Source: Promethearchaeota archaeon
GTDB taxonomy: Archaea; Asgardarchaeota; Lokiarchaeia; Sigyniarchaeales; SOKP01
Length of the DNA: 40,558 bases
Direction: 5' to 3'
Assembly: GCA_019058425.1 (NCBI GenBank)
Contig: JAHPYZ010000043.1
Coordinates: 1 to 40,558 of the forward strand
Numbering within the stretch: position 1 is the stretch's first letter; each line of letters starts with the position of its first letter. Position numbers and translations under genes: made by a program. Of this stretch, positions 4,231 through 36,370 are shown piece after piece. The notes below the pieces were generated by a model, which had not been told where the DNA came from, searched no databases, and was given only the letters and a program-made list of their open reading frames with translations.

Positions 4231-4572
4231 TTATTTCAGAAAATCATTTGAATCAAATCTATAAGCTGCTCTAGTAAGCCCTACATAATTATCTGATATT
4301 TTATAGTAAAGCTTGCCATTTACAATTTTTTTCTGCAGATAATTATTTTTAATAGTATGATTTAGACCATGAATCATAGTTCCTAATGTTACAGGACCTA
4401 CAAAACCATGCTGCTTTTTTGTAACTCTTATTAATTCTAATTCAGAATGCCAATGACCATCGAGGAGGGCAATCAAAATTTCATTTTTTATGGGGGTTTT
4501 AATGTCTTTTATTTTATTAAATAAATGTGAATAGCTTGGTTTATAATACTTATTATCATTAAATTTTTCCAT
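4231..4572 (-). CDS. Winged-helix DNA-binding protein
   Basis: The 113-residue protein carries a probable winged helix-turn-helix at about residues 27-95. Helix 1 is NEILIALLDG, followed by HSELELIRVTKK, a candidate recognition region around GPVTLGTMIHGLNHTIKN, and a beta-wing (KKIVNGKLYYKIS). There is no ligand-binding domain, so it may act as a small transcription regulator or a DNA-binding accessory protein. It lies on the minus strand about 120 nt downstream of the actin gene and could be read from the same transcript or its own. The target is unknown. The fold call rests on the helix/wing pattern only. Confidence 0.65.
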   Translation of the reverse strand: MEKFNDNKYYKPSYSHLFNKIKDIKTPIKNEILIALLDGHWHSELELIRVTKKQHGFVGPVTLGTMIHGLNHTIKNNYLQKKIVNGKLYYKISDNYVGLTRAAYRFDSNDFLK

Positions 4573-4691: not shown

Positions 4692-5813
4692 TTAGAGAAG
4701 ATTAGGTGGTATTCCTTCATTATAATATTTTGCCCGAGAAATCCAATTCTGTGAAAATTCAGGGATCATTGCTAAGATGGATCCTCCAATCCAAACAGAA
4801 AACGTCCGTTCCATTGGAGCAATAATTCGAATTCCTTGATTCTTCTTTTTCCGCCTTGCTAATTCTAATTCTAATTCTTGATACATACGAGATTTCATAT
4901 TAGGGAACATAGAGGAGCCTCCTGAAAGAAAAATATTATTTAATAAATCTGGACGAATATCTAAATCACAATCTTCAATAACATCCATGATAGCTACTTG
5001 TAATGCATCTTCTTCTAATTCTGAAGCAGGTGTGAATAATATTTCTGGGACAATAAATCTTTCTTTATTAAGTGAGATTGTTGAACCATCTGGAAGAGAA
5101 TATTCTTTTTCATATTGTTCACTTCGCTTCAGATCTTCTTTATAATCTAAAGATACAAAGCAGGCTTTTTCCTTTAAAACTCTAACGAGTTCTCTTCTTA
5201 TAGAAGAATCGACAGACCAACCAATGGATTCTAAAATATGTTCCATATGATGAGTTAACACTCTCCCGCCGATGTCTAAAATTCTGACCGCGTGTTCTAA
5301 TTTATATCCTTCATAAATTGGTACTATTCTGGTATTGCTATCACCTATCTCCACAATCAATCCTGTTTGAAAACCGCCGGAATATAGCGTTAACATCGAA
5401 TCTAATACAGGATAAAAAGCCATACATTGATATTGTTCTAAAAATAACTGAAATATTTTCTCTAAGTCTTTATGAGGAAATAAAGGATGAACAGCTAATA
5501 AAACATTAACAAGAGTCGGATCTACTCTCAAATTATAAAAGATATAATCAATAATATTCCTAAAATGATTCCAATCTACAACAATTCCTTTTTCAATTGG
5601 ATGAGAAATTTTATATAATCCAATCGATTGAATTTCATCTCCTACATAAATCTCATCTTCTCGAGAATGTTTGGATTCATAACTAACATCAACATTTTGA
5701 TATTTAGGCTTTCCCACCATTGTTAAAAATACTTGAGATGGTGAATCTTCGCCCGCGAATCCAATTTTTGTACTGAATTGACCAATATCAAGTACAACTG
5801 TTAAATTTCCCAT
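4692..5813 (-). CDS. Actin-family protein (Asgard actin/ARP) with altered catalytic site
   Basis: The 373-residue protein is collinear with eukaryotic actin (375) from end to end. Shared segments include GFAGED (18-23), YVGDEIQS (56-63), PIEKGIV (72-78), VPIYEGY (164-170), LPDGSTIS (240-247), the adenosine-site SGGSSMFPN (297-305), IIAPMER (330-336), SVWIGGSILA (339-348) and WISRAKYYNEG (357-367). Actins are ATP-binding filament formers. Several nucleotide-site residues differ: phosphate loop 1 reads DIGQF rather than DNGSG, the position of Gln137 is Asp138, that of Asp154 is Glu155, and that of His161 is Arg162. Gln137 and His161 position the attacking water in actin, so hydrolysis may be weak or lost, as in some actin-related proteins. 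It is therefore more ARP-like than canonical lokiactin. The ATG start aligns with the family start. A PIG-L deacetylase and a polyproline protein lie upstream on the same strand. Confidence 0.95.
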   Translation of the reverse strand: MGNLTVVLDIGQFSTKIGFAGEDSPSQVFLTMVGKPKYQNVDVSYESKHSREDEIYVGDEIQSIGLYKISHPIEKGIVVDWNHFRNIIDYIFYNLRVDPTLVNVLLAVHPLFPHKDLEKIFQLFLEQYQCMAFYPVLDSMLTLYSGGFQTGLIVEIGDSNTRIVPIYEGYKLEHAVRILDIGGRVLTHHMEHILESIGWSVDSSIRRELVRVLKEKACFVSLDYKEDLKRSEQYEKEYSLPDGSTISLNKERFIVPEILFTPASELEEDALQVAIMDVIEDCDLDIRPDLLNNIFLSGGSSMFPNMKSRMYQELELELARRKKKNQGIRIIAPMERTFSVWIGGSILAMIPEFSQNWISRAKYYNEGIPPNLL

Positions 5814-5905
5814 GCCTTAATATATTTAAAATTAATTTTAAGATATTTAGCCTAAACTATTATATCTAATATATTGTTTTAATTATTAAAAAAATCTCCG
5901 TACTT

Positions 5906-6652
5906 CTATATTAATAGAATTTTTAAAGGAGTATAGGTAGTCTCTGGTATATAAGCTTCACCATACCTAGCATTAATTTCATTTCCCCTCAAAATGGCAG
6001 TATCCTCTGCCCAATCTAAGACACGTTCTAATACTTCTTTTTGAGATGCATATACTTGATTAAAAATTCCTTTTTTTTCATTCCAGAAATTCTCAATGTT
6101 AACTATGATAAAGACTGATCCCTCTATATATTGAAATTTGCATGATGGAGATTCATAATAATATACACCTAAAGGAGTCCAATTTCGTTGATGACCACCA
6201 TATGCTTTTCCAGTAGAGCAATGATATATAGCTTCTCGAGCGATTAAAGATAAATTTCTGTGTACACGGTGAAAATCTGAATAATGGGGCAGTAAGATTA
6301 CTTGAGGTTTATAATTTCGTATTAGGTTAGTAACTCGTGAGATTTTAGTTCTATCAATTTGTAAATCTGAATATTCTAATTCGATTATTTCACAATTTAA
6401 AACAGTTTTGATTAGCTTTAATTCATTTTCTCTTCTCTCTCCGATATTATTTTTATGTTTTTCCTTCGCATATCCTCCTAATCCAGTAGTAGCAATAACA
6501 ATAATTAACTCTGTTCCAAGCTTTTTGTATTTTAGAAGGGTTCCACCGCAAGATATTATTTCATCGTCTGGATGGCCAGCAAAAACCATCATTCTTTTTG
6601 GAACAACTTTAGGAATTTCATCATCATATATTAAATTTGATTTATCAGACAT
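5906..6652 (-). CDS. PIG-L / LmbE-family zinc-dependent N-deacetylase
   Basis: Members remove an acetyl group from N-acetylglucosamine-type sugars, for example GlcNAc-PI in GPI synthesis or GlcNAc-inositol in mycothiol synthesis. The 248-residue protein has the hallmark zinc motif HPDDE at residues 27-31 after a hydrophobic strand (MMVFAG), and the second metal-binding region PHYSDFHRVH, with H128 and H131. There is no signal peptide or membrane anchor, so it is probably cytoplasmic. It sits between the actin gene (92 nt downstream) and the polyproline gene (about 100 nt upstream), all on the minus strand. Substrate cannot be told from sequence. An A-run just left of the stop (T-run on the coding strand) could terminate transcription. 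Confidence 0.9.
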   Translation of the reverse strand: MSDKSNLIYDDEIPKVVPKRMMVFAGHPDDEIISCGGTLLKYKKLGTELIIVIATTGLGGYAKEKHKNNIGERRENELKLIKTVLNCEIIELEYSDLQIDRTKISRVTNLIRNYKPQVILLPHYSDFHRVHRNLSLIAREAIYHCSTGKAYGGHQRNWTPLGVYYYESPSCKFQYIEGSVFIIVNIENFWNEKKGIFNQVYASQKEVLERVLDWAEDTAILRGNEINARYGEAYIPETTYTPLKILLI

Positions 6653-6750
6653 ATATTATCGCTCTCTAATTGGAAACTCAAAATCCTTATTAATTCTATA
6701 AATAGAAAATAGCAAATATATCAGAAAAGAGAAAGTATTAAATTATTTTT

Positions 6751-7485
6751 TTATTCTCCTCTCATTATTTTCTTCAAGCGATTCAATTCATCAAGCATTT
6801 CATCTCTAAGCGATCCTAATCCTCCTCCAGGTTGTGGTGCTACTGCAGGTGCTGAGGGAGCAGGAGGAGCTGATCCACCAGGTGCTTTTGGAGGTGCACC
6901 AGGGGGTGCAGCAGGTCTTTTTGCAAATGCGGGTGCTTTCGGAGGTCCACCACCAGAAGGTGCTTTCGGAGGTCCTCCTCCTGGAGGCGCTTTCGGAGGT
7001 CCACCACCAGAAGGTGCTTTCGGAGGTCCTCCTCCAGAAGGTGGTAATTTTGGAGCAGGTGGTAAACCTGAGCGTTTAGGAGGTCCCCCGCTAGCGGGTG
7101 CTTTTGGAGGTCCCCCTCCAGTAGGTGGAGCGGGAGCTGCGGTTGCGGTTGTAGGTACAGTACCAGGAGTAGCAGCGGGAGCTCCTCCACTACTACTTAA
7201 TAATGAGAACAAAGTACTTGCTGCAGCAGTTTTTGCACCTTCACTTGTAGGCGCTACTATTTTTTTAGAGGAAGTACTTACAGTCTGAACTTCTTCAACA
7301 ACGGATACTTCTTTCAAATCTTTTTGAGCTTTAGCCAATGATTTGATAAAGTCATTTATTCCTTTAACAGTCTCCTCTAGATCATCAGCAAGGGAGGTTA
7401 ATCCCTTTTTCATAAAATTAATAACACGTTCTATTTTTTTTTTGTTCTTTTGAAACCACGTTCTACTCAAATCCTCTAATATCAA
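6751..7485 (-). CDS. Polyproline-rich protein with helical ends; candidate actin/profilin partner
   Basis: The 244-residue protein has three parts. Residues 1-70 are charged and helical, likely coiled coil (FQKNKKKIERVINFMKKG and onward). Residues about 95-220 are low-complexity Gly/Pro with repeated GGGPPKAPS/P units, giving many PPxAP and PPP tracts. The last 22 residues form an amphipathic helix (LRDEMLDELNRLKKIMRGE). Proline-rich tracts followed by a short actin-binding helix are typical of eukaryotic actin regulators of the formin, WASP and VASP type, and a heimdallarchaeal profilin has been reported to bind polyproline. The terminal helix ends in LKKI, loosely like WH2, but its spacing is shorter than a true WH2. 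The start is a TTG; no in-frame ATG lies between it and the upstream stop. The actin gene is two genes downstream. Molecular function is inferred, not shown. Confidence 0.82.
   Translation of the reverse strand: MILEDLSRTWFQKNKKKIERVINFMKKGLTSLADDLEETVKGINDFIKSLAKAQKDLKEVSVVEEVQTVSTSSKKIVAPTSEGAKTAAASTLFSLLSSSGGAPAATPGTVPTTATAAPAPPTGGGPPKAPASGGPPKRSGLPPAPKLPPSGGGPPKAPSGGGPPKAPPGGGPPKAPSGGGPPKAPAFAKRPAAPPGAPPKAPGGSAPPAPSAPAVAPQPGGGLGSLRDEMLDELNRLKKIMRGE
6932..7048. repeat. 27-bp tandem repeat encoding GGGPPKAPS units
   Basis: About 4.3 copies of a 27-bp unit occur in register, with GGTGCTTTC or GGCGCTTTC starting at 6932, 6959, 6986 and 7013. Each unit encodes nine residues of the proline-rich domain on the minus strand. 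Two alternating versions are visible (CCACCACCAGAA and CCTCCTCCTGGA types), as expected of slippage or unequal exchange. This is the most GC-rich stretch in the window. Confidence 0.9.
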
Positions 7486-7731: not shown

Positions 7732-7998
7732 ATGCCTAAGCGTGAACTATTTATAAAAAGGGTGTATGAGATAGTAAACGAGCTTAAGATTCCTTTAATC
7801 GATGAGCGCGTATACGATAAAGTTGCATTCAGCACAGGGTCTGCTATTGCTTCTGTAATCTTCAGATTCGAGGAGGATGAATCTGTTATTCGTGGTTTCC
7901 TCGGTCTTGCTGAGTATTTCCATACGGTAGTCATAAAGAAAAAGGACGAGTTCTATATTCCTCACTCTTCTATCTTGTTCAAACTGGAAAGTGCTTAA
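7732..7998 (+). CDS. Small soluble protein of unknown family
   Basis: I do not recognise this 88-residue protein. It is mixed alpha/beta by eye: an N-terminal helix (KRELFIKRVYEIVNELK), a central STGSAIASVIFRF strand, then charged and hydrophobic alternation ending in PHSSILFKLESA. It has no Cys, signal peptide or membrane segment. Its codon choice differs from its neighbours: it uses CGT, CGC, GAG, TTC and CTC/CTT, which raises GC well above background. That is typical of highly expressed genes, though recent acquisition is another explanation. An AAGG sequence about 10 nt before the ATG may be a ribosome-binding site. It stands alone between the polyproline gene (divergent) and the phosphoribosyltransferase (convergent). 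Confidence 0.8.
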   Translation: MPKRELFIKRVYEIVNELKIPLIDERVYDKVAFSTGSAIASVIFRFEEDESVIRGFLGLAEYFHTVVIKKKDEFYIPHSSILFKLESA

Positions 7999-17480: not shown

Positions 17481-17876
17481 ATGCACGAATTTATAGAAAT
17501 CAAACCTATTTCTGAAAAAAAAGGGAGAGGAGCTTTTGCTAGAAAGCCAATAAAAAAAGATACAGTTATTGATGTGGCTAATGTAGTCCCTATTCCTAAC
17601 AAAGAATACAAGAAAGTATGTCGAACAATTCTGTATAATTACTGTTATATTTGGGAAGATCCAGAACATATGCCAGCATTTAAAAATGCCATAACTCTTA
17701 GTATAAGTCAATTTATCAATCACTCTTATGAACCTAATGTTAAATATCTATATGACTATGAGAATAAAGCTATAGAATTTTCTGCCATTAGAGATATTTC
17801 AGAAGGGGAGGAATTAACAGTAAATTATAATGGACTTATTGATGATAAAAGTCCTATGTGGTTTGAAGTGGAATAA
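17481..17876 (+). CDS. SET-domain protein (putative lysine methyltransferase), copy 1
   Basis: SET proteins transfer methyl groups from S-adenosylmethionine to lysines. The 131-residue protein is a bare SET domain: KKGRGAFARKPIKKDTVI is the N-terminal strand pair, SISQFINHSYEPNV contains the NHxxxPN cofactor motif, and EGEELTVNYNG holds the catalytic-type tyrosine. There is no pre-SET or Cys-rich post-SET region; the end, SPMWFEVE, is shared with copy 2. It starts 2 nt after the hexuloisomerase, so the two are co-transcribed. The substrate is unknown; a small basic chromatin protein or a metabolic enzyme are both possible. Confidence 0.88.
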   Translation: MHEFIEIKPISEKKGRGAFARKPIKKDTVIDVANVVPIPNKEYKKVCRTILYNYCYIWEDPEHMPAFKNAITLSISQFINHSYEPNVKYLYDYENKAIEFSAIRDISEGEELTVNYNGLIDDKSPMWFEVE

Positions 17877-17946: not shown

Positions 17947-18354
17947 GTGAATTCCACGAAAAGTCTTATAGAAGTAAAATTCATATCAAAGAGAAAAGGT
18001 AGGGGTGTATTTGCTAAGAAGAATATCGCAAAAGATGTGATTATAGATATTGCATATATAATCCTTATCTCTAACAAAGATTGGGACTTAATCGAAGACA
18101 CTATTTTATCTAATTATTCTTTTGAATGGGATGATCCTAAGTGCATTGGAGAATATGATTCCGCAATCTCCTTAAGTGTTAGTCAATTTATAAATCATTC
18201 ATATGAACCGAATATAAAATATGACTATGATTATAAAAATAAATGTATCAAGTATATCACGCTTCGAGAAATTTCTAAAGGAGAGGAAATTACTGTAAAT
18301 TATAATGGTGAGCCATCTAACGATTCACCTATGTGGTTTGAAGTAGAGGATTGA
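17947..18354 (+). CDS. SET-domain protein (putative lysine methyltransferase), copy 2
   Basis: This 135-residue SET protein is a tandem paralogue of copy 1, with roughly half of positions identical by eye. It shares KGRGxFAxK, SQFINHSYEPN, GEEITVNYNG and the terminal SPMWFEVE. Differences cluster in the middle (residues about 40-65), the region that usually forms the substrate-facing SET-I insert, which suggests different targets. The GTG start at 17947 overlaps an AAGGTG sequence, so initiation may be leaderless. Its stop is one base from the stop of the convergent endonuclease IV gene. Confidence 0.87.
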   Translation: MNSTKSLIEVKFISKRKGRGVFAKKNIAKDVIIDIAYIILISNKDWDLIEDTILSNYSFEWDDPKCIGEYDSAISLSVSQFINHSYEPNIKYDYDYKNKCIKYITLREISKGEEITVNYNGEPSNDSPMWFEVED

Positions 18355-19749: not shown

Positions 19750-21708
19750 ATGGAAATAGAAAAACCGAACGATGAACAATTAGAAAAAGAAAGGATAGAG
19801 AGAGAACAACTTGAAAAAGAGCAACTTGAAAAGGAAAGAATGGAAAAACAAAGAAATGAGAATAAACTATATCCCCATGACTCACTGTTTATGATACCTA
19901 GTTGGAGTGATTTATTAGGTTATCCAACCTTAGGAACTTATGTTCACCATCCCGTTTCAAAAATAGTTTCAGATCCAGTTATATTTCTTAGTGGTTACGA
20001 TTATTCTATTGAGACTCCAAAAGGAACACTTCATTACCTCTTTGGTTTAGGATATTATTATCTAAAGTTTGAATTAGAATCTGGTAAATATATTACCGAC
20101 AATCGAATATTAACAGGATTAGTACTTTCTGACTTTGTGTATGACCACATGGCTACTTCAGAAAATATAACATTAGAAGAAGATAAAGATGTTATTATAG
20201 CAGAAAAAGTGATTAAAATTCCTATTAATTTGTCATACAAATCAGAAGAGCATTTATCTTTCATAAAGGGGGTATTAATGAGAAATGTTTTCATACCAAA
20301 TAAAGATATATTTATGGAGATGATGGAAAGAATCCGTCAGGATGATTCATATCAAATTAATAAAGAGGGGCATATGCTTTTGAGTACTCATTGGGATTAC
20401 TACAATCAAATTTTAGTTTCTGAAAAGATGAGAGAAAAGACGGATAATTCTTACCTAAATTCAACCGCTGGATTAGATGGGATTAATTTTGGTGTAGATC
20501 ATCATTTACAGGAAACCATTTCTAATGTAAACCTAAGTATTATAGAAGGTAATATTGACTATTTGAGAAATGTTTATTCTAATCTTGAATTTGATCCAAT
20601 GTATATCTTCTCCATTATAGAAAATGCATCAATAATGCTAGATTCCAATATACCACAAATCTCTTCGAATAAAAGAGAATCAATAAATAAAATGTCTTCT
20701 AAGGAGTCGATTTTTACTTCCGCAGAAGACCGTTTGTATTCATTTATCAGTTGGCCAGTCCAATTTAGAAGAAAGGCAGAAAAAGAGCTTCCAGTTTTGT
20801 CTAAAAAGGAAAAATACCCCGCATACGTTCTTCAAAATGATGTTCAAAAGCCTAGTATCAGTCCCACAAAAATATCTGACGCCGAACAAGAAAAATTTGA
20901 GATCGACACATTAAAATCAAAAAAAGTTGAGTCTAAACCATTACCTAATCCCCCAAAACCTGATTTTAAACAAATTTTCTTATATCTAAAAATAGTACTT
21001 GATGAAGATTATGAAATGAGATCTATTGGACAAGCATTTGAAATCGCCAGAGAAAGTATGAGGCAAATTGGAGTTAGTGCAACCACAACTGAGCAGAGCA
21101 AAATTTGGGAAATGAGTAAGTATGCTAATATTTACATGAAAAAGGAACCAAATTTTGGTTTACCTTTAAAAGAAAAACAAGAACTGCTTCAAAAGGTTAT
21201 TAAGTGGATATTTGAGCTTGAGGAAGAAGAACGAAAGGAAAAGGAAAGGTTAGAAAGAGCTCGTTTAGAGAAAGAGAGAATAGAGAGAATGGAGAGGGAG
21301 AGAAAAGAAAGAGAAAGTCAAGAAAAGGCAAAGCAAGAAAGAGAACATCAAGAGAAAATTCGAAAAGAAAGAGAGAGGGTAAGGCAAGAACAATTAGAAA
21401 AAGCAAGGTTAGAAAAAATCGAAAGAGAAAAACAAAAAGAAATCAGATTAGAACGAGAAAGGATAGAAAAAATTGAAAGAGAAAAGCAAAAGGAAATCAT
21501 GTTAGAACAAGAAAGGATAGAGAAGGAGAAAAAAGAATTAGAAGCCATCCAAAAAGAAAAGCAAGAACTTGAACGGTTAAAACAAGAGAGAAAGCAAAAA
21601 GAAAAAGAAGCGAAACAAGAAATCAAAAGAAGAAAAAAATTAGAAAAACAAAAGAAAAAATTAGAAAAAAAGAAGCAAAAAGAACAAGAAAAGATGAAAA
21701 ACCTCTAA
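19750..21708 (+). CDS. Large protein with unknown globular core and long charged single-alpha-helix tail
   Basis: I do not recognise the core of this 652-residue protein. Residues 8-37 are an EQLEKER-type charged helix. Residues about 40-330 appear globular with aromatic-rich segments (SLFMIPSWSDLLGYP, LFGLGYYYLKFEL, STHWDYYNQIL). Residues about 395-490 form a second helical domain (PDFKQIFLYLKIVLDEDYE and onward). From about 490 to the end, more than 150 residues are almost only E, K, R, Q, L and I with i/i+4 acidic-basic pairs, as in single alpha helices of caldesmon, ezrin and myosins, rather than a clean coiled-coil heptad. There is no signal peptide or membrane segment. A scaffold or cytoskeleton-linked role is possible but inferred. 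Confidence 0.8.
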   Translation: MEIEKPNDEQLEKERIEREQLEKEQLEKERMEKQRNENKLYPHDSLFMIPSWSDLLGYPTLGTYVHHPVSKIVSDPVIFLSGYDYSIETPKGTLHYLFGLGYYYLKFELESGKYITDNRILTGLVLSDFVYDHMATSENITLEEDKDVIIAEKVIKIPINLSYKSEEHLSFIKGVLMRNVFIPNKDIFMEMMERIRQDDSYQINKEGHMLLSTHWDYYNQILVSEKMREKTDNSYLNSTAGLDGINFGVDHHLQETISNVNLSIIEGNIDYLRNVYSNLEFDPMYIFSIIENASIMLDSNIPQISSNKRESINKMSSKESIFTSAEDRLYSFISWPVQFRRKAEKELPVLSKKEKYPAYVLQNDVQKPSISPTKISDAEQEKFEIDTLKSKKVESKPLPNPPKPDFKQIFLYLKIVLDEDYEMRSIGQAFEIARESMRQIGVSATTTEQSKIWEMSKYANIYMKKEPNFGLPLKEKQELLQKVIKWIFELEEEERKEKERLERARLEKERIERMERERKERESQEKAKQEREHQEKIRKERERVRQEQLEKARLEKIEREKQKEIRLERERIEKIEREKQKEIMLEQERIEKEKKELEAIQKEKQELERLKQERKQKEKEAKQEIKRRKKLEKQKKKLEKKKQKEQEKMKNL

Positions 21709-27740: not shown

Positions 27741-28667
27741 ATGAATGAGCAGTATCGTGACCGATTTTTTAATAATAAATTCGATGAAAATCAATTACCT
27801 CAATCGAAATGTTGCACTAATCCATTTATTGAAGCTCGGGATGGGAATAAAGTTTGCTTAAATTGTGGTGTGATTTTTGAACGAACATTTGTTGGAAATG
27901 AAAGGAGAGCATATACTATCGAAGAAATTCAAAATCGTCGCAGAACAGAACCTAGATGGAGAGACTTTGGACCGAGGACAATGCTTCCGAACACTAAAAC
28001 AGATAGTAAAGGCAAATCTATTGGCGCAAAAGAGCAAGCTCTCTTCTCTCGCCTTTCAAAAATTCAAAATTCATTAATCTCAAGTATAGAGCGTAATTTT
28101 TGGGAAGCAAAACCAAAATTAAAAATGTTAACTTCAAAACTTAACATACCAGAGTATATTTCCGAAACGGCGTGGAAAATATACAGTATAGTAGCTAAAA
28201 AGAAATTAACCATGGGGAGGTCAATCAATGGGTTTATTTCAGGTTCATTATATGCTGCTATCCGTGTTCATGATTTTCCACGATTATTAGATGAAATCTG
28301 CGAAGCTTCATTAACCCCTCGGAGAACAGTCCATAGAAGTTTGGCTATGATTATTCGTGAAGTACTTCCAGAACTTAATTTAAGGTATCAACCTATTACA
28401 GCTGAAAGTTTAGTATTTCGATTCGGTAATGAGTTAGATCTCCCAATTCAAATTCAGAAAAATGCTATCAATATGCTTAAAGATGCGTCAAGAAATGGGC
28501 TCAAACGGACAGGAAAGGATCCTAAAGGATTAGCAGCGGCTTGTATTTATATAGCTAGTAAGAATGGAGGCATCCGCAAGACCCAATCGCGTGTGGCGGA
28601 GGTTGCAAAGATTACAGAAGTGACTTTGCGAAGTCGAGCCAAGCAGATAAAAAGCAAACTTATTTAA
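27741..28667 (+). CDS. tfb: Transcription initiation factor TFB (TFIIB homologue) 1
   Basis: TFB bridges TBP-bound promoter DNA and RNA polymerase. The 308-residue protein has an N-terminal zinc ribbon (KCCTNPF followed by VCLNCG), a B-reader/linker region with RTEPRWRDFGPRT (about 68-80), and two cyclin folds at about 110-205 and 215-308, including RSINGFISGSLYAAIR, and DPKGLAAACIYIASKNGG with the C-terminal HTH. The first zinc pair is CC rather than the usual C-x2-C or C-x2-H, so ribbon zinc coordination may be modified. The C-terminal repeat is well conserved, so the protein is likely functional as a promoter factor. Confidence 0.92.
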   Translation: MNEQYRDRFFNNKFDENQLPQSKCCTNPFIEARDGNKVCLNCGVIFERTFVGNERRAYTIEEIQNRRRTEPRWRDFGPRTMLPNTKTDSKGKSIGAKEQALFSRLSKIQNSLISSIERNFWEAKPKLKMLTSKLNIPEYISETAWKIYSIVAKKKLTMGRSINGFISGSLYAAIRVHDFPRLLDEICEASLTPRRTVHRSLAMIIREVLPELNLRYQPITAESLVFRFGNELDLPIQIQKNAINMLKDASRNGLKRTGKDPKGLAAACIYIASKNGGIRKTQSRVAEVAKITEVTLRSRAKQIKSKLI

Positions 28668-29406: not shown

Positions 29407-30378
29407 TTGAAGAAAAAGAAGAATTTAGCACCAGAAATCTCTGAATGTTCACATAGAAACATCAAACAAGACAAAGGATTTGTTGTTTGTCAAGATTGCG
29501 GCCTAATAATGGACGGCAAAACTTTTGAAAATACAAGTTCTACAAGTGACTTCTTTACAGATTCACAAAGAGACTATGAAAGAAGAATAAGGATAAGCGA
29601 TTCCAAAGCACTCCAAGATCCTGTGATTAAAGAAAAATATGAGAGAATTAAAACTCTTGAAAAATGGTTCCGTGATTATAAAAGTGAATTTACTGAGCAA
29701 AAGAAGACTATTGAATTATTAAAGAGCCATAGTATTGGATTGAACATAGATAACGTAATGTTTAAAGAAATTAAGGATAGATATCTAAAATATAATAAAT
29801 ACCACCGACATAATTACCAGAATATGATAATAATTTTTCTCGCAATCGTGTGGATGCAAATAAAGGATACTACTCACATTAGAATAGAGGAATTTATTAA
29901 AATCTCGAGAGAATTGGGACATAAGATAAACAAAAAGATGTTGAATAATGCAATGCTGAAAGTGAAAAGAACAGAAAATATGTTAAAAGAGAAAAAAACT
30001 ATTGCAGATATTGAAAATGAGATAAAAAGTAGAATAAAGATTGTTTTTCAAAAAGATCTAAATAATATAACATACGAAGAAGTTCAGGAGTTCTTTTCTG
30101 AAAAGATCGAATATGAGAAAATTAAAATCGAAATGCTATTATTAGCCGATAAGATATTGAATAAAATTCCATACAGTCAAATTCAGAATCGTAATTATAA
30201 AGCATTTACAGCAGGTCTAATTTACTTTGTTGGTCAAACACTTGAGAATAGGAAAATTTTTACTCAAAGTATAGTAGAGAGAACGAGTAAATTTTCAAGT
30301 ACTACTATTCGAAAGAAATACCACGTTTTAAAAGATTTGTTGGGAGACCCGCAAGAACTTGAATTGAAAGCTCAATGA
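29407..30378 (+). CDS. Divergent TFB (TFIIB)-like protein 2
   Basis: The 323-residue protein keeps a TFIIB-type zinc ribbon (ECSHRN, then VCQDCGLIMDGKTFE) but is otherwise strongly diverged. The B-reader region is replaced by a polar, helical linker (residues about 45-110). Two all-helical regions at about 110-195 and 215-310 can be matched to cyclin folds, the second ending in a plausible HTH (SIVERTSKFSSTTIRKKYHVL). Lys/Glu content is high. It starts with TTG; the only upstream in-frame option is not an ATG. It is probably a specialised or alternative initiation factor, or a TFB-derived regulator. Confidence 0.75.
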   Translation: MKKKKNLAPEISECSHRNIKQDKGFVVCQDCGLIMDGKTFENTSSTSDFFTDSQRDYERRIRISDSKALQDPVIKEKYERIKTLEKWFRDYKSEFTEQKKTIELLKSHSIGLNIDNVMFKEIKDRYLKYNKYHRHNYQNMIIIFLAIVWMQIKDTTHIRIEEFIKISRELGHKINKKMLNNAMLKVKRTENMLKEKKTIADIENEIKSRIKIVFQKDLNNITYEEVQEFFSEKIEYEKIKIEMLLLADKILNKIPYSQIQNRNYKAFTAGLIYFVGQTLENRKIFTQSIVERTSKFSSTTIRKKYHVLKDLLGDPQELELKAQ

Positions 30379-30461: not shown

Positions 30462-33332
30462 ATGTCATCAACAGAGTTAAGAAGTGAAATCAAATATTAT
30501 AATCAACCTATTGAAAATCTAATCAACACTTTTAATACGGATATTGATCATGGATTAAAATCATCCGAATTGAATGAAAGATATTTAAAATTTGGCTATA
30601 ATGAACTACCAAAGATAAAGAAATCAATTTGGAAGATATATTTAGCTCCAATTTTCAACTTCCTAATTCTTATTCTTATCATAACAGGTGTTATTATCGT
30701 AATTTTGGGTTCTGCTGAAGACACTATTATTACATTTACTGTTGTATTTTTGAATTCTGCGACAGTTGTAATTCAACAATTTCGTGCTCAGAAAGCTTTA
30801 GAATCCTTACGTCAAATCTCCGCACTAAAAGCGACAATAATTAGAGATGGAAACCAATTCGAAGTACCTAATAGAGAATTAGTTCCTGGAGATATTGTGG
30901 TATTAGAACAAGGAGATAAAATTCCAGCTGATGGGAGAATTATAAGTCACGTAAATCTTACTATTGACGAAGCTCCATTAACTGGAGAAAGTGAACCAGT
31001 AGAAAAAATATCTAATAATATCCAAGATAAAGAAGTTTCAATACAAAAACAATCTAATATGGTATTTATGGGAACATATATTTATACAGGAAGAGCAAAA
31101 GCATTAATTACAGGAACAGGTATTAATACAGAGATTGGGAAAATATCTGAAACTCTAAATGAAATGGGAAGTATTGAAGATATTCCACTTACAAGAAAAT
31201 TAAACAGATTGGGGTATATTCTAGGAACAATTGTGGTAATAAATTTGATTATCTTAATTATTTATAAATTTACTTTATTATTGATTGAAGGAAATTTCAT
31301 TCAATCAGAAATTAGTAGCGCTCTTGTTAGCTCTATTTTAAGGGCTACTAATGTCTTACCTATTAATCTTCCAATATTATCAACACTCGTTTTAATTACA
31401 GGTGTATTAAACATGGCTCAAAGTGGTGTAATCATTAAAAATCTCTCTTCAATAGAATCACTTGGTAGAGTTTCTGTAATTTGTTCAGATAAAACAGGTA
31501 CTATTACCAAAAACGAAATGACAGTTGAAAAGCTCTGGATCAACGAGAATGAATATGATGTAACCGGTTCTGGCTATGATATTGAAGGAAAAATATATCA
31601 AAATGGTACTCCAATAAGCTTGAAAGAAAATCTTACATTTATTAAATTTATAGATTCAATGGTGTTAAATAATAATGCACAACTTGTATTTGAAGATGTT
31701 AAAATCCGATTAAGAGAAAAACGAGAAATGGCAGTAAGACGAGCTTTAGGTTCTCCAACTGAAGCTGCATTATTAGTGCTAGTTGAAAAAGCGGGATATA
31801 TCCCCTATGATATTAAAAAGAAATATGAATTTATTACTGAATTTTCTTTTAGTTCTGAATTAAAACGAATGAGCTCAATATGCAAGTCCAATAGTAATGA
31901 AGGTGATATATTTGTATTTACTAAAGGAGCTCCTGAAAGAATTATTGATATTTCTTCAAGCATTGATATAAATGGAGTTATAAAACCTTTAGATTCAAAT
32001 TTTAGAAAAGAAATTTTGAATAAAATAGGATTGAGTGCAAATCAAGGATATAGGACTCTTGCGTTATCTTATAAAATGCTTTCTGACTTTAATAACGCCA
32101 AAAGAGAAGACGTAGAAAAAGAATTAATTTTATTAGGATTTGTTTCAATTATGGATCCTCCAAGAAAAGGAGTTAAAGAGTCTATTGAACAATGTCAAAA
32201 TGGAGGTATAAGCGTTAAAATGATTACAGGTGATCATCCGGCAACGGCAAAAACAATCGGTTCACAAATGGGAATTTATAAACAAGGAGATTTAGTTGTC
32301 GAAGGTTTTGAATTAAAAAATCCATCTATGTTAGATTTTGAAAAAATATCTGTTTTTGCTCGTGTAGAGCCCTCAGATAAGGAAATCATTGTTAAACATT
32401 ATCAAGATAAAAAACAAGTAGTTGCTATGACAGGTGATGGAATAAATGATTCACTAGCTTTAAAGCTCGCCAATGCAGGTATAGCTATGGGGATTACAGG
32501 AACAGATGTTGCAAAAGAAACTGCTGATATGGTTATATCAGACGATAATTTTACTTCTATTGAAAAGGGTGTTAGAATCGGTCGTGGTCTTTTTTCGAAG
32601 ATTAGAACTATTATTTATTTCTTCATTTGTTTGAATATTATGGAGGCTATTATTTTTTTTACATATGAATTTATACCCACATTTGAACTGTTTAGTTCAG
32701 AATGGCAACATATTTATATCTTTGGTATAGTGCATTCTCTTCCTTCATTAGCTTTAGTGATCGATAGACACCCTAAAGATATTATGCTTGAACCTCCTAG
32801 AGATGAACAACAGATATTAAATAGAAATATGTGGATAATGTTATTAATTCAGGCTTTTCTCATGGGTTTGGGATTAGTTTTAGTTTTACAGTTGACTATA
32901 TGGCAGGTAATTCCCTTGAATGAATGGAATCTGAATCCTACTATTAGTTATATCAATCCTGCTAGTCCTTATACTGAACTTGTAGCTCAAAAAGCAAGAA
33001 CCATGTTTATTACAACAATCTTCATTGTTGAAACTAATTTCATTTGGACATTTAGAAGACCAAATAAATCTCTCCTTAGAAGTTTCAAAGAAGAATTTAG
33101 CCTTTCTTTACTGGTTATATGTTTATTCACATTGTTATTGCATTTTCTCTTTATTACATTCTCATATCTCGTTAATCATTATGTAAATGATGTTTTCGGG
33201 TTAGATTTACAGATAAATTTCATGTTCCTTAGCGGAACTGATTGGATATTATGCATCTTATTTGCTTTACCTGGAATAATTGGCATTGAAATAATGAAAT
33301 ACCTTGCACGCGAGAGAAATATACAATTCTAA
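30462..33332 (+). CDS. P-type cation-transporting ATPase 1, unusual ion site
   Basis: P-type ATPases pump cations by way of an aspartyl-phosphate. The 956-residue protein has an N-terminal cation-ATPase domain (1-60), an A domain with LTGESEP, the phosphorylation motif DKTGT (D343), KGAPERI in the N domain, MITGDHPATA, TGDGINDSLA, and about ten membrane helices. Overall similarity is to the P2 (Ca2+, Na+/K+) and P3A (H+) classes. The ion-site motifs are different, however. TM4 reads PINLP (300-304) where Ca2+ pumps have PEGLP and H+ pumps PVALP. TM5 keeps N725 and E728. TM6 has H758 where P2 pumps have the key Asp. A sister gene follows 122 nt downstream with the same replacements. The ion transported is unknown. 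Confidence 0.93.
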   Translation: MSSTELRSEIKYYNQPIENLINTFNTDIDHGLKSSELNERYLKFGYNELPKIKKSIWKIYLAPIFNFLILILIITGVIIVILGSAEDTIITFTVVFLNSATVVIQQFRAQKALESLRQISALKATIIRDGNQFEVPNRELVPGDIVVLEQGDKIPADGRIISHVNLTIDEAPLTGESEPVEKISNNIQDKEVSIQKQSNMVFMGTYIYTGRAKALITGTGINTEIGKISETLNEMGSIEDIPLTRKLNRLGYILGTIVVINLIILIIYKFTLLLIEGNFIQSEISSALVSSILRATNVLPINLPILSTLVLITGVLNMAQSGVIIKNLSSIESLGRVSVICSDKTGTITKNEMTVEKLWINENEYDVTGSGYDIEGKIYQNGTPISLKENLTFIKFIDSMVLNNNAQLVFEDVKIRLREKREMAVRRALGSPTEAALLVLVEKAGYIPYDIKKKYEFITEFSFSSELKRMSSICKSNSNEGDIFVFTKGAPERIIDISSSIDINGVIKPLDSNFRKEILNKIGLSANQGYRTLALSYKMLSDFNNAKREDVEKELILLGFVSIMDPPRKGVKESIEQCQNGGISVKMITGDHPATAKTIGSQMGIYKQGDLVVEGFELKNPSMLDFEKISVFARVEPSDKEIIVKHYQDKKQVVAMTGDGINDSLALKLANAGIAMGITGTDVAKETADMVISDDNFTSIEKGVRIGRGLFSKIRTIIYFFICLNIMEAIIFFTYEFIPTFELFSSEWQHIYIFGIVHSLPSLALVIDRHPKDIMLEPPRDEQQILNRNMWIMLLIQAFLMGLGLVLVLQLTIWQVIPLNEWNLNPTISYINPASPYTELVAQKARTMFITTIFIVETNFIWTFRRPNKSLLRSFKEEFSLSLLVICLFTLLLHFLFITFSYLVNHYVNDVFGLDLQINFMFLSGTDWILCILFALPGIIGIEIMKYLARERNIQF

Positions 33333-33454
33333 TATTCCTTTTTGATAACAAATATTTAATTTTTTAAATTATGGTTATTATAGGTTATTTATTACATTGA
33401 AATTTCAACTTTAATTATTCTTAATTTATATTAAAAATTCAAGGAAGACTAATT

Positions 33455-36370
33455 ATGGAATCTACAGAAAAAGCTTATTATAATATTGAACTAAGCGAAA
33501 TCTATAAAGAATTTCAAGCTGATCCTGAGAAAGGGTTATCGGCAAAAGAAGCTGCGAAGAGATTAGATAAATATGGCTTAAATGAAATCCCAAAAGTTTC
33601 TAAAGGTTTTATTAAAATATACCTTGCACCATTATTTAATTGGCTGATCGTTATATATCTAATAGGTGCTGTAATATTAATTTTAGCATGGGCTTTCGCT
33701 GGAGAAGGAGATTTAGTAACTGTTGCATTGACATTATTCATTGTTCTTCTAAATTGCTTAGTAGCAATTGTTCAACAATATCGTGCAACTAAGAAGCTTA
33801 AAGCCTTACGTGAATTGACAGCTCCGACATCAACTATTATTAGGGATGGACAGAAATTAGAAGTACCAACCAAAGAAATAGTTGTAGGTGATCTATTAGT
33901 TTTAAGTCAAGGGGATAAAATTCCAGCAGATGCAAGAATCATAAAATCATTTAATCTTGTGGTAAATGAAGCATCCTTGACAGGTGAAAGTGAACCTGTA
34001 AGAAAAACTGAACTAGGAGATGCGTTAAAAAACAGAGATATTTCTATAGGAGAACGTAGTAATATGGTATTCTATGGTACTTTTATTTCTACAGGAACAG
34101 GGAAATCAATTATAGTAAAAACTGGGGGTAATACTGAAATTGGGAAGATTTCTCATGGTTTGGAAGAAGCTGGTACAAGTGAGATTCCAATTAGACAGAA
34201 GATGAATAATTTTGGAAAAATTTTAGGGATTATTGTTTTCATATTTTGGTTTATTACATTGCTAATTATTTGGGCTGCAAGAGGGAGACCCGAAATTGTG
34301 GAAAGTTTAAACTCTGCTCTTGATCTAATGCCTATCAACATACCGTTATTGGTTACTATTATTTTAATAACTGGAGTTCTTGCAATGGCACATCATGGCG
34401 TAATAATAAGAAACCTTGCTTCAGTCGACAGTCTAGGACGTGTCAGTGTTGTATGTTCAGATAAAACAGGTACACTAACAAAAAATCAAATGTCAATTCA
34501 ACATGTCTGGACAAATGGTTCGATTTTTAGAGTAACAGGTAGTGGTTATACTCCTGATGGAGATCTAGTTCTTATGGATGATCCAAAAAATCACATATAT
34601 GTTAAACATATTGATGAATACCCACACCTTAAATTACTTTTAACTTCTGGTTTTTTAAATAATAATTCTGCTTTAGTTAAAAATGAGATTGAAATAGGAG
34701 GAAAAACCCTCTATAATTGGAATGTAATTGGTTCTCCTACAGAAGGAGCACTTATGGTTTTATTCCAAAAAGGTATGGGTGATTACCTTCTTGAAGATTA
34801 TGAATCCATTACAGAATATCCGTTTGATTCTTCTTTAAAACGAATGTCTAAAGTCTATAAAAGAGATCAAGTATATCTTTCCTTCACTAAAGGTGCAAGT
34901 GAAATTCTAATGCCTCTTTGTTCAAAAGTAATATATAATGATAGTGAAATTGAATTTACTGATGAGATTAAGAAGAAGATTTTAGAGATCGTTGATTTAT
35001 ATGCTAATCAAGGGTATAGAATTCTAAGTTTATGCTATAAAGAAATGAATCAGATCCCTCCAGAGGGAAATGAGGGTAGAGAAATCAGTGAATCAAATCT
35101 AACATATATCGGATTCGTGACAATTTTAGATCCTCCAAGAGAAGGCGTAAAAGAATCGGTAGAAGAATGTCATGAAGCAGGGGTTGATGTGGTAATGATC
35201 ACAGGAGACTCTCCTGCTACTGCGAGAGCAATAGCTTCTCAAATTGCTATAATAACTGATGAGAGTGAGATTGCTGTAGAAGGAAAAGATGTCAAAAACA
35301 TCGAAACATACGATGAATTTGCTCGAGTACGTGTTTTTGCTCGGGTATCTCCTGAACATAAAGAAGATATTGTAGAAAAATATCAAGAGCAAAAGAAAGT
35401 TGTTGCAATGACAGGGGATGGAGTAAATGACGCGCTAGCATTAAATATGGCTGATGCAGGAGTAGCTATGGGAATTACAGGAACTGATGTTGCAAAAGAA
35501 GCTTCAGATATGGTAATTTCTGATGATTCGTTTAATTCGATAGTGACAGGTATTCATGAAGGTAGAGGAATATTCGCAAGGATCCGGGCTGTTGTATTTT
35601 TTTATATTTGTATTAACATTTTTGAAGGTATTGTTCAATTTATATTGGCTATTATATTAGATTTACCTTATTTCTTAGATGAAGCTTTCTATTATCAATG
35701 GGTTTTTCTTTCATTAACTTTGCATATATTTCCTGGTTTGATTCTAACATTTGATACTACTTCAAAAGATGTAATGAAGCAAAAACCTAGGGATTCAGAA
35801 GAGATTCTCTCAAAAAATACATCTAAACTTTTATTAATATTTGGCGCTTTTCTGTCGTTAAGTATGATAATAGTATATTTCATAACAATTACTGGTTTTT
35901 ATCCTGTTTTTCCTGAAAACTTAGTTCCAGAATATCTATATTATGATGATACTTTAATACCTCCGCATGTATATGATATCCCTGCAGTTATGTATGCAGA
36001 AGCCGCTCAACAATTAAATGTGATTAGAACTATCGGAAAAAGTTTAACAATGATGATGTGTGTTTTATATTTCTGTGAAACTTTTCTTGTATTCCAGATT
36101 CGAAGGCCTAATAAATCTTTGATAAAAAGTTTTATTGAAGATAGTAACAAATTTATGTATCTTTTAATTGGATTTTTATTCTTTCTATTTATTGCATTAC
36201 TATATATTCCCGGAGTGCAAGTGTTCTTAGCCGAAGAATTAGGAATCAATTTTATGTTTATGCCTTTGACAGGATTAGATTGGTTAGTTTGCTTTTTGAT
36301 TTCTCTGATTTGTATCGTTTCATTTGAAATAGTAAAGTGGATTACGCGTAGTAGAGGGATTGAATTTTAA
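33455..36370 (+). CDS. P-type cation-transporting ATPase 2, unusual ion site
   Basis: The 971-residue protein is a full paralogue of the preceding pump. It has LTGESEP, DKTGT (D336), KGASEIL, MITGDSPATA, TGDGVNDALA and about ten membrane helices. As in the first copy, TM4 is PINIP (293-297), TM5 has N721 and E724, and TM6 carries His757 (LTLHIFPG) in place of Asp. A longer external loop between TM7 and TM8 (about 815-850) distinguishes it. A TATA-like ATTTATATT at 33424-33432 suggests its own promoter, and an AAGGAAG about 8 nt before the ATG is a possible ribosome-binding site. The ion is unknown. Confidence 0.93.
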   Translation: MESTEKAYYNIELSEIYKEFQADPEKGLSAKEAAKRLDKYGLNEIPKVSKGFIKIYLAPLFNWLIVIYLIGAVILILAWAFAGEGDLVTVALTLFIVLLNCLVAIVQQYRATKKLKALRELTAPTSTIIRDGQKLEVPTKEIVVGDLLVLSQGDKIPADARIIKSFNLVVNEASLTGESEPVRKTELGDALKNRDISIGERSNMVFYGTFISTGTGKSIIVKTGGNTEIGKISHGLEEAGTSEIPIRQKMNNFGKILGIIVFIFWFITLLIIWAARGRPEIVESLNSALDLMPINIPLLVTIILITGVLAMAHHGVIIRNLASVDSLGRVSVVCSDKTGTLTKNQMSIQHVWTNGSIFRVTGSGYTPDGDLVLMDDPKNHIYVKHIDEYPHLKLLLTSGFLNNNSALVKNEIEIGGKTLYNWNVIGSPTEGALMVLFQKGMGDYLLEDYESITEYPFDSSLKRMSKVYKRDQVYLSFTKGASEILMPLCSKVIYNDSEIEFTDEIKKKILEIVDLYANQGYRILSLCYKEMNQIPPEGNEGREISESNLTYIGFVTILDPPREGVKESVEECHEAGVDVVMITGDSPATARAIASQIAIITDESEIAVEGKDVKNIETYDEFARVRVFARVSPEHKEDIVEKYQEQKKVVAMTGDGVNDALALNMADAGVAMGITGTDVAKEASDMVISDDSFNSIVTGIHEGRGIFARIRAVVFFYICINIFEGIVQFILAIILDLPYFLDEAFYYQWVFLSLTLHIFPGLILTFDTTSKDVMKQKPRDSEEILSKNTSKLLLIFGAFLSLSMIIVYFITITGFYPVFPENLVPEYLYYDDTLIPPHVYDIPAVMYAEAAQQLNVIRTIGKSLTMMMCVLYFCETFLVFQIRRPNKSLIKSFIEDSNKFMYLLIGFLFFLFIALLYIPGVQVFLAEELGINFMFMPLTGLDWLVCFLISLICIVSFEIVKWITRSRGIEF

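Follow-up and report, generated by a model that had tools for sequence, protein, structure and literature searches.

A proline-rich protein gene linked to an actin-related gene in Lokiarchaeia, and a C-terminal helix that recurs across Asgard archaea

We analysed a window of 40,558 nucleotides from a Promethearchaeota archaeon (assembly GCA_019058425.1, contig JAHPYZ010000043.1, positions 1 to 40,558), which is contig C44 of a 4.64-Mb genome in 143 contigs. Positions 4692-7485 hold three open reading frames (ORFs), all on the minus strand, which encode an actin-family protein, a PIG-L family deacetylase and a proline-rich protein that we name POLYP. A reading made earlier from the sequence alone (the sequence-only reading) had recognised these three genes on one strand, and had seen in POLYP a helical N-terminus, a proline domain with GGGPPKAP repeats and a terminal helix. 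Both observations stand. The actin-family protein matches Pfam Actin with E=2.8e-91 (306.6 bits against a cut-off of 27) and the deacetylase matches Pfam PIG-L with E=1.6e-23 (84 bits against a cut-off of 28.2). The AlphaFold2 model of POLYP, built from 21 sequences, has helices at residues 2-64, 89-97 and 223-241 and is disordered elsewhere, including the linker ahead of the last helix (mean pLDDT 62.6). The last helix is strongly conserved in POLYP and recurs on other proteins in many Asgard genomes.

Homologues of POLYP at E<=0.001 are found in 49 of 58 genomes, its own included, the weakest of which may reflect low complexity, and relatives are up to 87% identical to it across residues 12-244. 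These matches show that the ORF is a real, conserved gene. POLYP belongs to no significant Pfam or NCBIfam family (the best Pfam match, E=0.022, is far under the cut-off), and a search against the PDB gives nothing significant (best E=0.71). In searches of open papers we found no description of the family or of its C-terminal helix. The different parts of the protein are conserved to different degrees. The linker varies among homologues in length and in number of repeats, and its motifs LPPxP[KR]LPP and FAKR are each present in 17 of the 21 homologues from family f1 (f1, f2 and so on are our labels for Asgard families). The motif AAxTL[FI]xLL of the middle helix is found in all 21 of these, and the looser form L[FIVW]x[LMV]L in 33 of the 34 homologues overall. 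The C-terminal helix is predicted with pLDDT 80-95 and has the family consensus LRxEMLxELxRLKxIMxG. Eight of its 19 positions are invariant in the 34 homologues, three of the eight being fixed by the pattern used for anchoring; an alignment of 11 divergent members likewise gives eight invariant columns.

A profile of 24 positions built from the helices of those 11 members matches 193 of 227 Asgard genomes at E<=0.05, where about 11 would be expected by chance. We retrieved 20 of the match regions, which comprise 16 full-length proline-rich proteins, two partial C-terminal pieces and two Loki proteins in which the helix is internal. The 16 full-length proteins have 254-556 aa, come from families f8, f13, f15, f18, f20 and f27, and place the start of the helix 20-26 residues before the C-terminus. 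All 16 have an N-terminal membrane-spanning stretch (a 19-residue hydropathy window above 1.6 within the first 100 residues), which is seen in none of the 34 POLYP homologues. The loci of this membrane-anchored type (L163-L180) have a recurrent neighbourhood, with rpiA (ribose-5-phosphate isomerase) nearby in 16 of 18, a PIN/secretion-type (T2SSE-type) ATPase in 15 and the tRNA-splicing endonuclease EndA in 14, where the Pfam names of the neighbours are taken from L163 and L170. EndA is also near POLYP in three of the eight POLYP loci that are not of the f1 type (L151, L154 and L162). Because EndA lies near both, the two types may be positional equivalents that occupy the same ancestral place.

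The second family with the helix consists of Loki-type zinc-ribbon-like proteins (CPxCGxxNH ... CCxC), in which one to three copies of the helix occur in the chain. Its members are L107:1366-1821, which is in the window's own genome (contig C36), L182, L217, L220 and L262-L291. Of the 29 loci checked from a search with the zinc ribbon only, the helix being excluded, 25 have the helix motif upstream of the ribbon. In the L182 protein a Ras/Roc GTPase domain and proline runs precede the helix; a 265-aa paralogue that adjoins this protein looks GTPase-like by eye. Searches of reference databases give the helix no identity: the 11 helix peptides match no Pfam family whatever, and what the profile picks up in the PDB is short matches of coiled-coil type, M protein among them (best E=0.059). 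As a separate observation, L232-L238 encode Sec23/24-like proteins, and the one at L232 matches Sec23_trunk (1.1e-11) and the beta-sandwich family Sec23_BS (8.7e-10). Relatives of these proteins occur in 14 of the 39 genomes searched, and none is found in the window's own genome at E<=1e-20.

The N-terminus of POLYP as called, with a TTG start at 7485, is doubtful. In its relatives the gene starts with ATG or GTG followed by GTT TCA AAA. The counterpart of that start in the window, at 7457-7459, is out of frame because five relatives have one A fewer than the run of ten at 7434-7443 (minus strand), a difference that alters the reading frame. The extra A may be a sequencing error or a real change.

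We reject a reading of the window's actin-family gene as the organism's main actin. The genome has four actin-family ORFs, and its Lokiactin is the one on contig C126, which our tree groups with main actins from the ten Asgard families sampled and which keeps Gln137, Asp154 and His161. The protein in the window is also of the actin family, as are Lokiactin and other Asgard actin-related proteins, but it is only 41% identical to the organism's Lokiactin, differs from it in the sequence of the D-loop, and falls in a clade of its own. We call it ARP (actin-related protein). The ARP clade has 15 rows of the 37-row tree, the window's included, with support 100/100 and a stem length of 1.15, and comes from families f1 and f2 only; several of the rows outside it are long-branched and badly placed. 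In the window, ARP has Asp for Gln137, Glu for Asp154 and Arg for His161, and in the cleft it has Glu for Thr351 and Asn for Met355 of Lokiactin. The alignment columns Thr351, Leu349 and Tyr337 are named in actin numbering, anchored on Lokiactin motifs. Across the 15 rows, position 137 is Asp, Gly or Glu and never Gln, position 161 is always Arg, and position 14 (Ser or Thr in actin) is Gln or Glu in 13 rows, Ala in one and Ser in one. A fragment from f3, excluded from the tree, has the signature Gln14, Asp137, Arg161 as in ARP. Because Gln137 and His161 are lost, members of the clade probably do not hydrolyse ATP in the manner of actin, and ARP is probably a hydrolysis-deficient, lineage-specific actin paralogue. 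That Asgard archaea have ARPs is already known: PMC9834061 describes, for Ca. L. ossiferum, one Lokiactin with severalfold higher transcription and three ARP-like homologues.

We examined the gene neighbourhood in one genome per species. The scan gave 55 loci, from Lokiarchaeota, Lokiarchaeia, Helarchaeota, Sigynarchaeota or Harpocratesius genomes, of which 53 are POLYP and two (L157 and L161) are zinc-ribbon proteins of genomes G048 and G045. Table 1 gives the arrangement in the window. In all 45 loci of the f1 type POLYP is followed, on its own strand, by an ARP of at least 45% identity at a distance of 129-5,890 bp (median 952), with PIG-L between the two in 33 of them (in one as a 70-aa piece) and with additional genes inserted between them in several genomes. 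The 113-aa gene is present in all 45, and in 41 of them it shares the strand of ARP and lies within 700 bp of it. S88 is present in 41, and in the other four the contig ends just upstream of POLYP. Conservation of the gene order, which the sequence-only reading had named as a check, stands for one family and fails beyond it. At the other eight POLYP loci there is no actin gene of any kind in the downstream sequence, which amounts to 9.6-10 kb in six of them, 3.7 kb in L158 and 2.1 kb in L159; nor is there one within L163-L182, which include the 18 membrane-type loci. Within f1 the whole block is equally syntenic, namely topoisomerase, 113-aa gene, ARP, PIG-L, POLYP, S88 and phosphoribosyltransferase. 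Loci L145-L147 (genus g7) give a hint that POLYP, PIG-L and ARP hold together as a trio more tightly than they do with the genes on either side: S88 is replaced there, as is the topoisomerase in the two loci that show it, and the trio stays intact. This is a single event in one genus.

Table 1. Features of the POLYP-ARP locus, in window coordinates.
Feature	Position	Strand	Remarks
POLYP	6751..7485	-	244 aa; helix, Pro-rich disordered linker, C-terminal helix
POLYP long N-terminal helix	7294..7482	-	residues 2-64; AlphaFold2
POLYP short mid helix, motif AAxTLFxLL	7195..7221	-	residues 89-97; AlphaFold2
POLYP disordered Pro/Gly linker: GGGPPKAP repeats, LPPxPKLPP and FAKR motifs	6823..7188	-	low pLDDT
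POLYP C-terminal putative docking helix, consensus LRDEMLxELxRLKKIMRG	6763..6819	-	residues 223-241; AlphaFold2 and conservation
ARP (actin-related protein), altered catalytic residues	4692..5813	-	373 aa; Pfam Actin
PIG-L family deacetylase	5906..6652	-	248 aa; Pfam PIG-L
113-aa protein, 3' of ARP	4231..4572	-	winged-helix-like by eye
S88, divergent 88-aa neighbour	7732..7998	+	no known family or fold match

POLYP and ARP also differ in their distribution. Besides f1 and f2, POLYP is present in families f4, f7, f9 and f10, in whose incomplete genomes the best actin match to ARP reaches at most 44% identity, the level of Lokiactin; by these searches POLYP is the more widespread of the two. In the f2 genomes G040 and G042 POLYP is about 70 kb and about 44 kb from ARP, and PIG-L adjoins ARP in two of the six f2 ARP contigs examined: L080 (8814-9566) and L082 (6031-6780), where the longest PIG-L and ARP ORFs overlap by one base. 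PIG-L may be an older neighbour of ARP than POLYP is. The linkage of POLYP to ARP is real, yet seen in one Lokiarchaeial family.

Among the neighbours, the PIG-L protein contains AGHPDDE, HPDD being the motif of PIG-L deacetylases. It also matches the BshB1 deacetylase model (E=9.6e-21), but with a score of 74.5 where the model's cut-off is 182.5. The 113-aa protein matches nothing in Pfam or NCBIfam. S88 is present in 88 of the 227 Asgard genomes, is strongly conserved beside POLYP, and adjoins POLYP in two Helarchaeota loci as well. Its fold is predicted confidently (AlphaFold2 pLDDT 87.8), and searches of Pfam, NCBIfam and the PDB, the last by sequence and by fold at E<=0.001, find no significant match.

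As the best explanation of these data, to which we give about an even chance, we propose that POLYP serves as a tether or scaffold in Asgard archaea and that its C-terminal helix docks onto one conserved partner common to most of them. The long N-terminal helix would oligomerise, and the N-terminus would cluster the protein or hold it at a membrane; in the helix-bearing proline-rich proteins of other Asgard families a membrane anchor stands in place of this helix. The disordered Pro/Gly linker would give reach, and the C-terminal helix would dock into the partner, by which several different proteins would be brought to the same place. ARP may feed into the same process. Docking is favoured by a C-terminal helix that is nearly invariant beside a linker that is variable, and by the occurrence of the helix in a second protein family. 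Several points weigh against the proposal. An amphipathic helix of 19 residues can arise repeatedly, and the hydrophobic moment of this one is ordinary for its composition, being matched by 14% of shuffles. Its presence is sporadic in two further families: about 5 of 14 Sec23/24-like rows, all from f1, show a recognisable helix, and so does one of 12 DUF4140-like rows (L248), besides the DUF4140-like finds of the helix search itself (L222, L227 and L231). We do not use either group as support, and in both the helix may be there by chance. Finally, the helix could associate with itself instead of with a partner.

One alternative is that the partner is actin. The C-terminal helix would bind the hydrophobic cleft of Lokiactin or ARP, and POLYP or its membrane-anchored relatives would sequester, nucleate or anchor actin. 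The position of ARP 3' of POLYP throughout f1 argues for it, and so does part of a WH2 motif. WH2 motifs combine the core [RK]..[LM]L..[ILM] with an LKK at a characteristic spacing. The core, which is the N-terminal half of the pattern, is found in the C-terminal helix of 34/34 POLYP homologues and 10/16 membrane-anchored proteins, but the full pattern with LKK at WH2 spacing is found in 0/34 and 0/16. Pfam WH2 (PF02205) has no match in 16 POLYP members, for which 25 of 28 families are listed, none of them significant. A WH2 search of the whole genome gives one match, with E=1.9 and away from POLYP, and the same search gives matches in 8 of 14 control genomes. In favour of actin, one POLYP member matches CCDC53, a component of the WASH complex, but not significantly (E=0.012). 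Also speaking against actin are the presence of POLYP in four families where the best match to ARP is at the level of Lokiactin, the eight loci and the L163-L182 set with no actin gene, and the two altered cleft positions in ARP.

There is an archaeal precedent for such binding: according to PMC5173319, the C-terminal helix of arcadin-2 binds the hydrophobic groove or cleft of crenactin with a Kd of 31 nM. As in the Pyrobaculum arcade cluster described there, POLYP is a protein with a C-terminal helix that shares a gene cluster with an actin homologue. The likeness is one of layout, and the spread of POLYP exceeds its linkage to actin. Proteins with the helix (by our scans) and actin (by our scans and PMC9834061) are moreover each nearly universal in Asgard archaea. 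On balance we hold it unlikely that POLYP is an actin tether. The broader form, in which the helix is an Asgard-wide docking module with the actin system as its receptor (Lokiactin, with ARP as a lineage-specific modulator) and proline-rich tethers, membrane-anchored or self-clustering, and GTPase-linked zinc-ribbon proteins reach the cytoskeleton by it, is quite a long way from probable.

Another alternative is that the C-terminal helix is itself a short oligomerisation domain, as VASP tails are, so that POLYP would be a fibrous cross-linker and the different helix proteins would co-assemble. The hydrophobic spacing of 4-4-3-4 (by eye), the confident prediction of the helix and the several copies of it in some zinc-ribbon proteins are consistent with this. 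On the other side, the helix is very short for a stable coiled coil, and because its charged residues (Glu, Arg, Lys) are invariant they suggest a specific receptor. We consider self-association improbable.

A third possibility is a link to ESCRT, with the helix as a MIM-like ligand of the MIT domain of Vps4. The helix is terminal, amphipathic and Leu-rich, but the MIM1 consensus [DE]xxLxxRLxxL[KR] is found in 0/34 POLYP homologues and 0/16 membrane-anchored proteins, and we reject MIM1 as its identity. Even given that the Asgard Vps4 MIT domain binds MIM1 and MIM2, as stated in PMC7240154, an ESCRT ligand is very doubtful.

The sequence-only reading had gone on to propose that POLYP is an actin-assembly factor on the logic of formin FH1, VASP and WASP, in which a proline linker recruits profilin-actin beside an actin-binding helix. 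POLYP resembles the layouts of Ena/VASP, WASP and formin FH1 in having a proline-rich linker that adjoins a terminal helix, and LPPPP is found in 5 of its 34 homologues. It differs from them in domains and in proline runs. No Pfam match to EVH1 or FH2 is found in the POLYP of the window or among the families listed for the 16 members. Tracts of the FH1 type that bind profilin have at least five consecutive prolines. Runs of that length occur in none of the 34 homologues; the longest is 2 in the window, at most 2 in most of the others and 3 or 4 in a few, whereas profilin-type motifs of five prolines are present in three membrane-anchored helix proteins from f15. The organism's probable profilin is a 123-aa ORF that matches PDB 5zza chain P with E=3.2e-6, but it is on a different contig (C43). 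That chain is annotated as uncharacterised and we take it to be Loki profilin; against Pfam Profilin the ORF scores 16.5 bits, under the cut-off. Some Asgard profilins do bind polyproline: PMC8410842 reports this for one Heimdall and one Thor profilin. For Loki profilin-1 and -2 the same paper reports no binding to VASP polyproline, and its authors suggest that weak binding may be general. With no EVH1, FH2 or WH2 match and no run of at least five prolines we reject membership of POLYP in the FH1/VASP/WASP group, and an assembly factor of this kind seems to us highly improbable.

Other parts of the window show a few features of their own, all noted by eye. Two adjoining small proteins at 17481-17876 and 17947-18354 are SET-domain-like. 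A 652-aa protein at 19750-21708 ends in a very long charged region, rich in Glu, Arg and Lys, that looks like a single helix. Two neighbouring proteins at 27741-28667 and 29407-30378 are TFIIB-like, and they are followed at 30462-36370 by two tandem P-type-ATPase-like proteins.

If the C-terminal helix is one module with one receptor, as in the docking explanation that we prefer, it would mark a protein hub common to most Asgard archaea, and it would provide a 19-residue bait. The ARP clade, with its catalytic residues lost, is a clear example of how an actin paralogue has become non-canonical outside eukaryotes. If the receptor were the actin system, the linkage of POLYP to ARP would be a window on an archaeal cytoskeleton system, and the helix proteins would be an archaeal membrane-to-actin tether with a bearing on the origin of the eukaryotic cytoskeleton.

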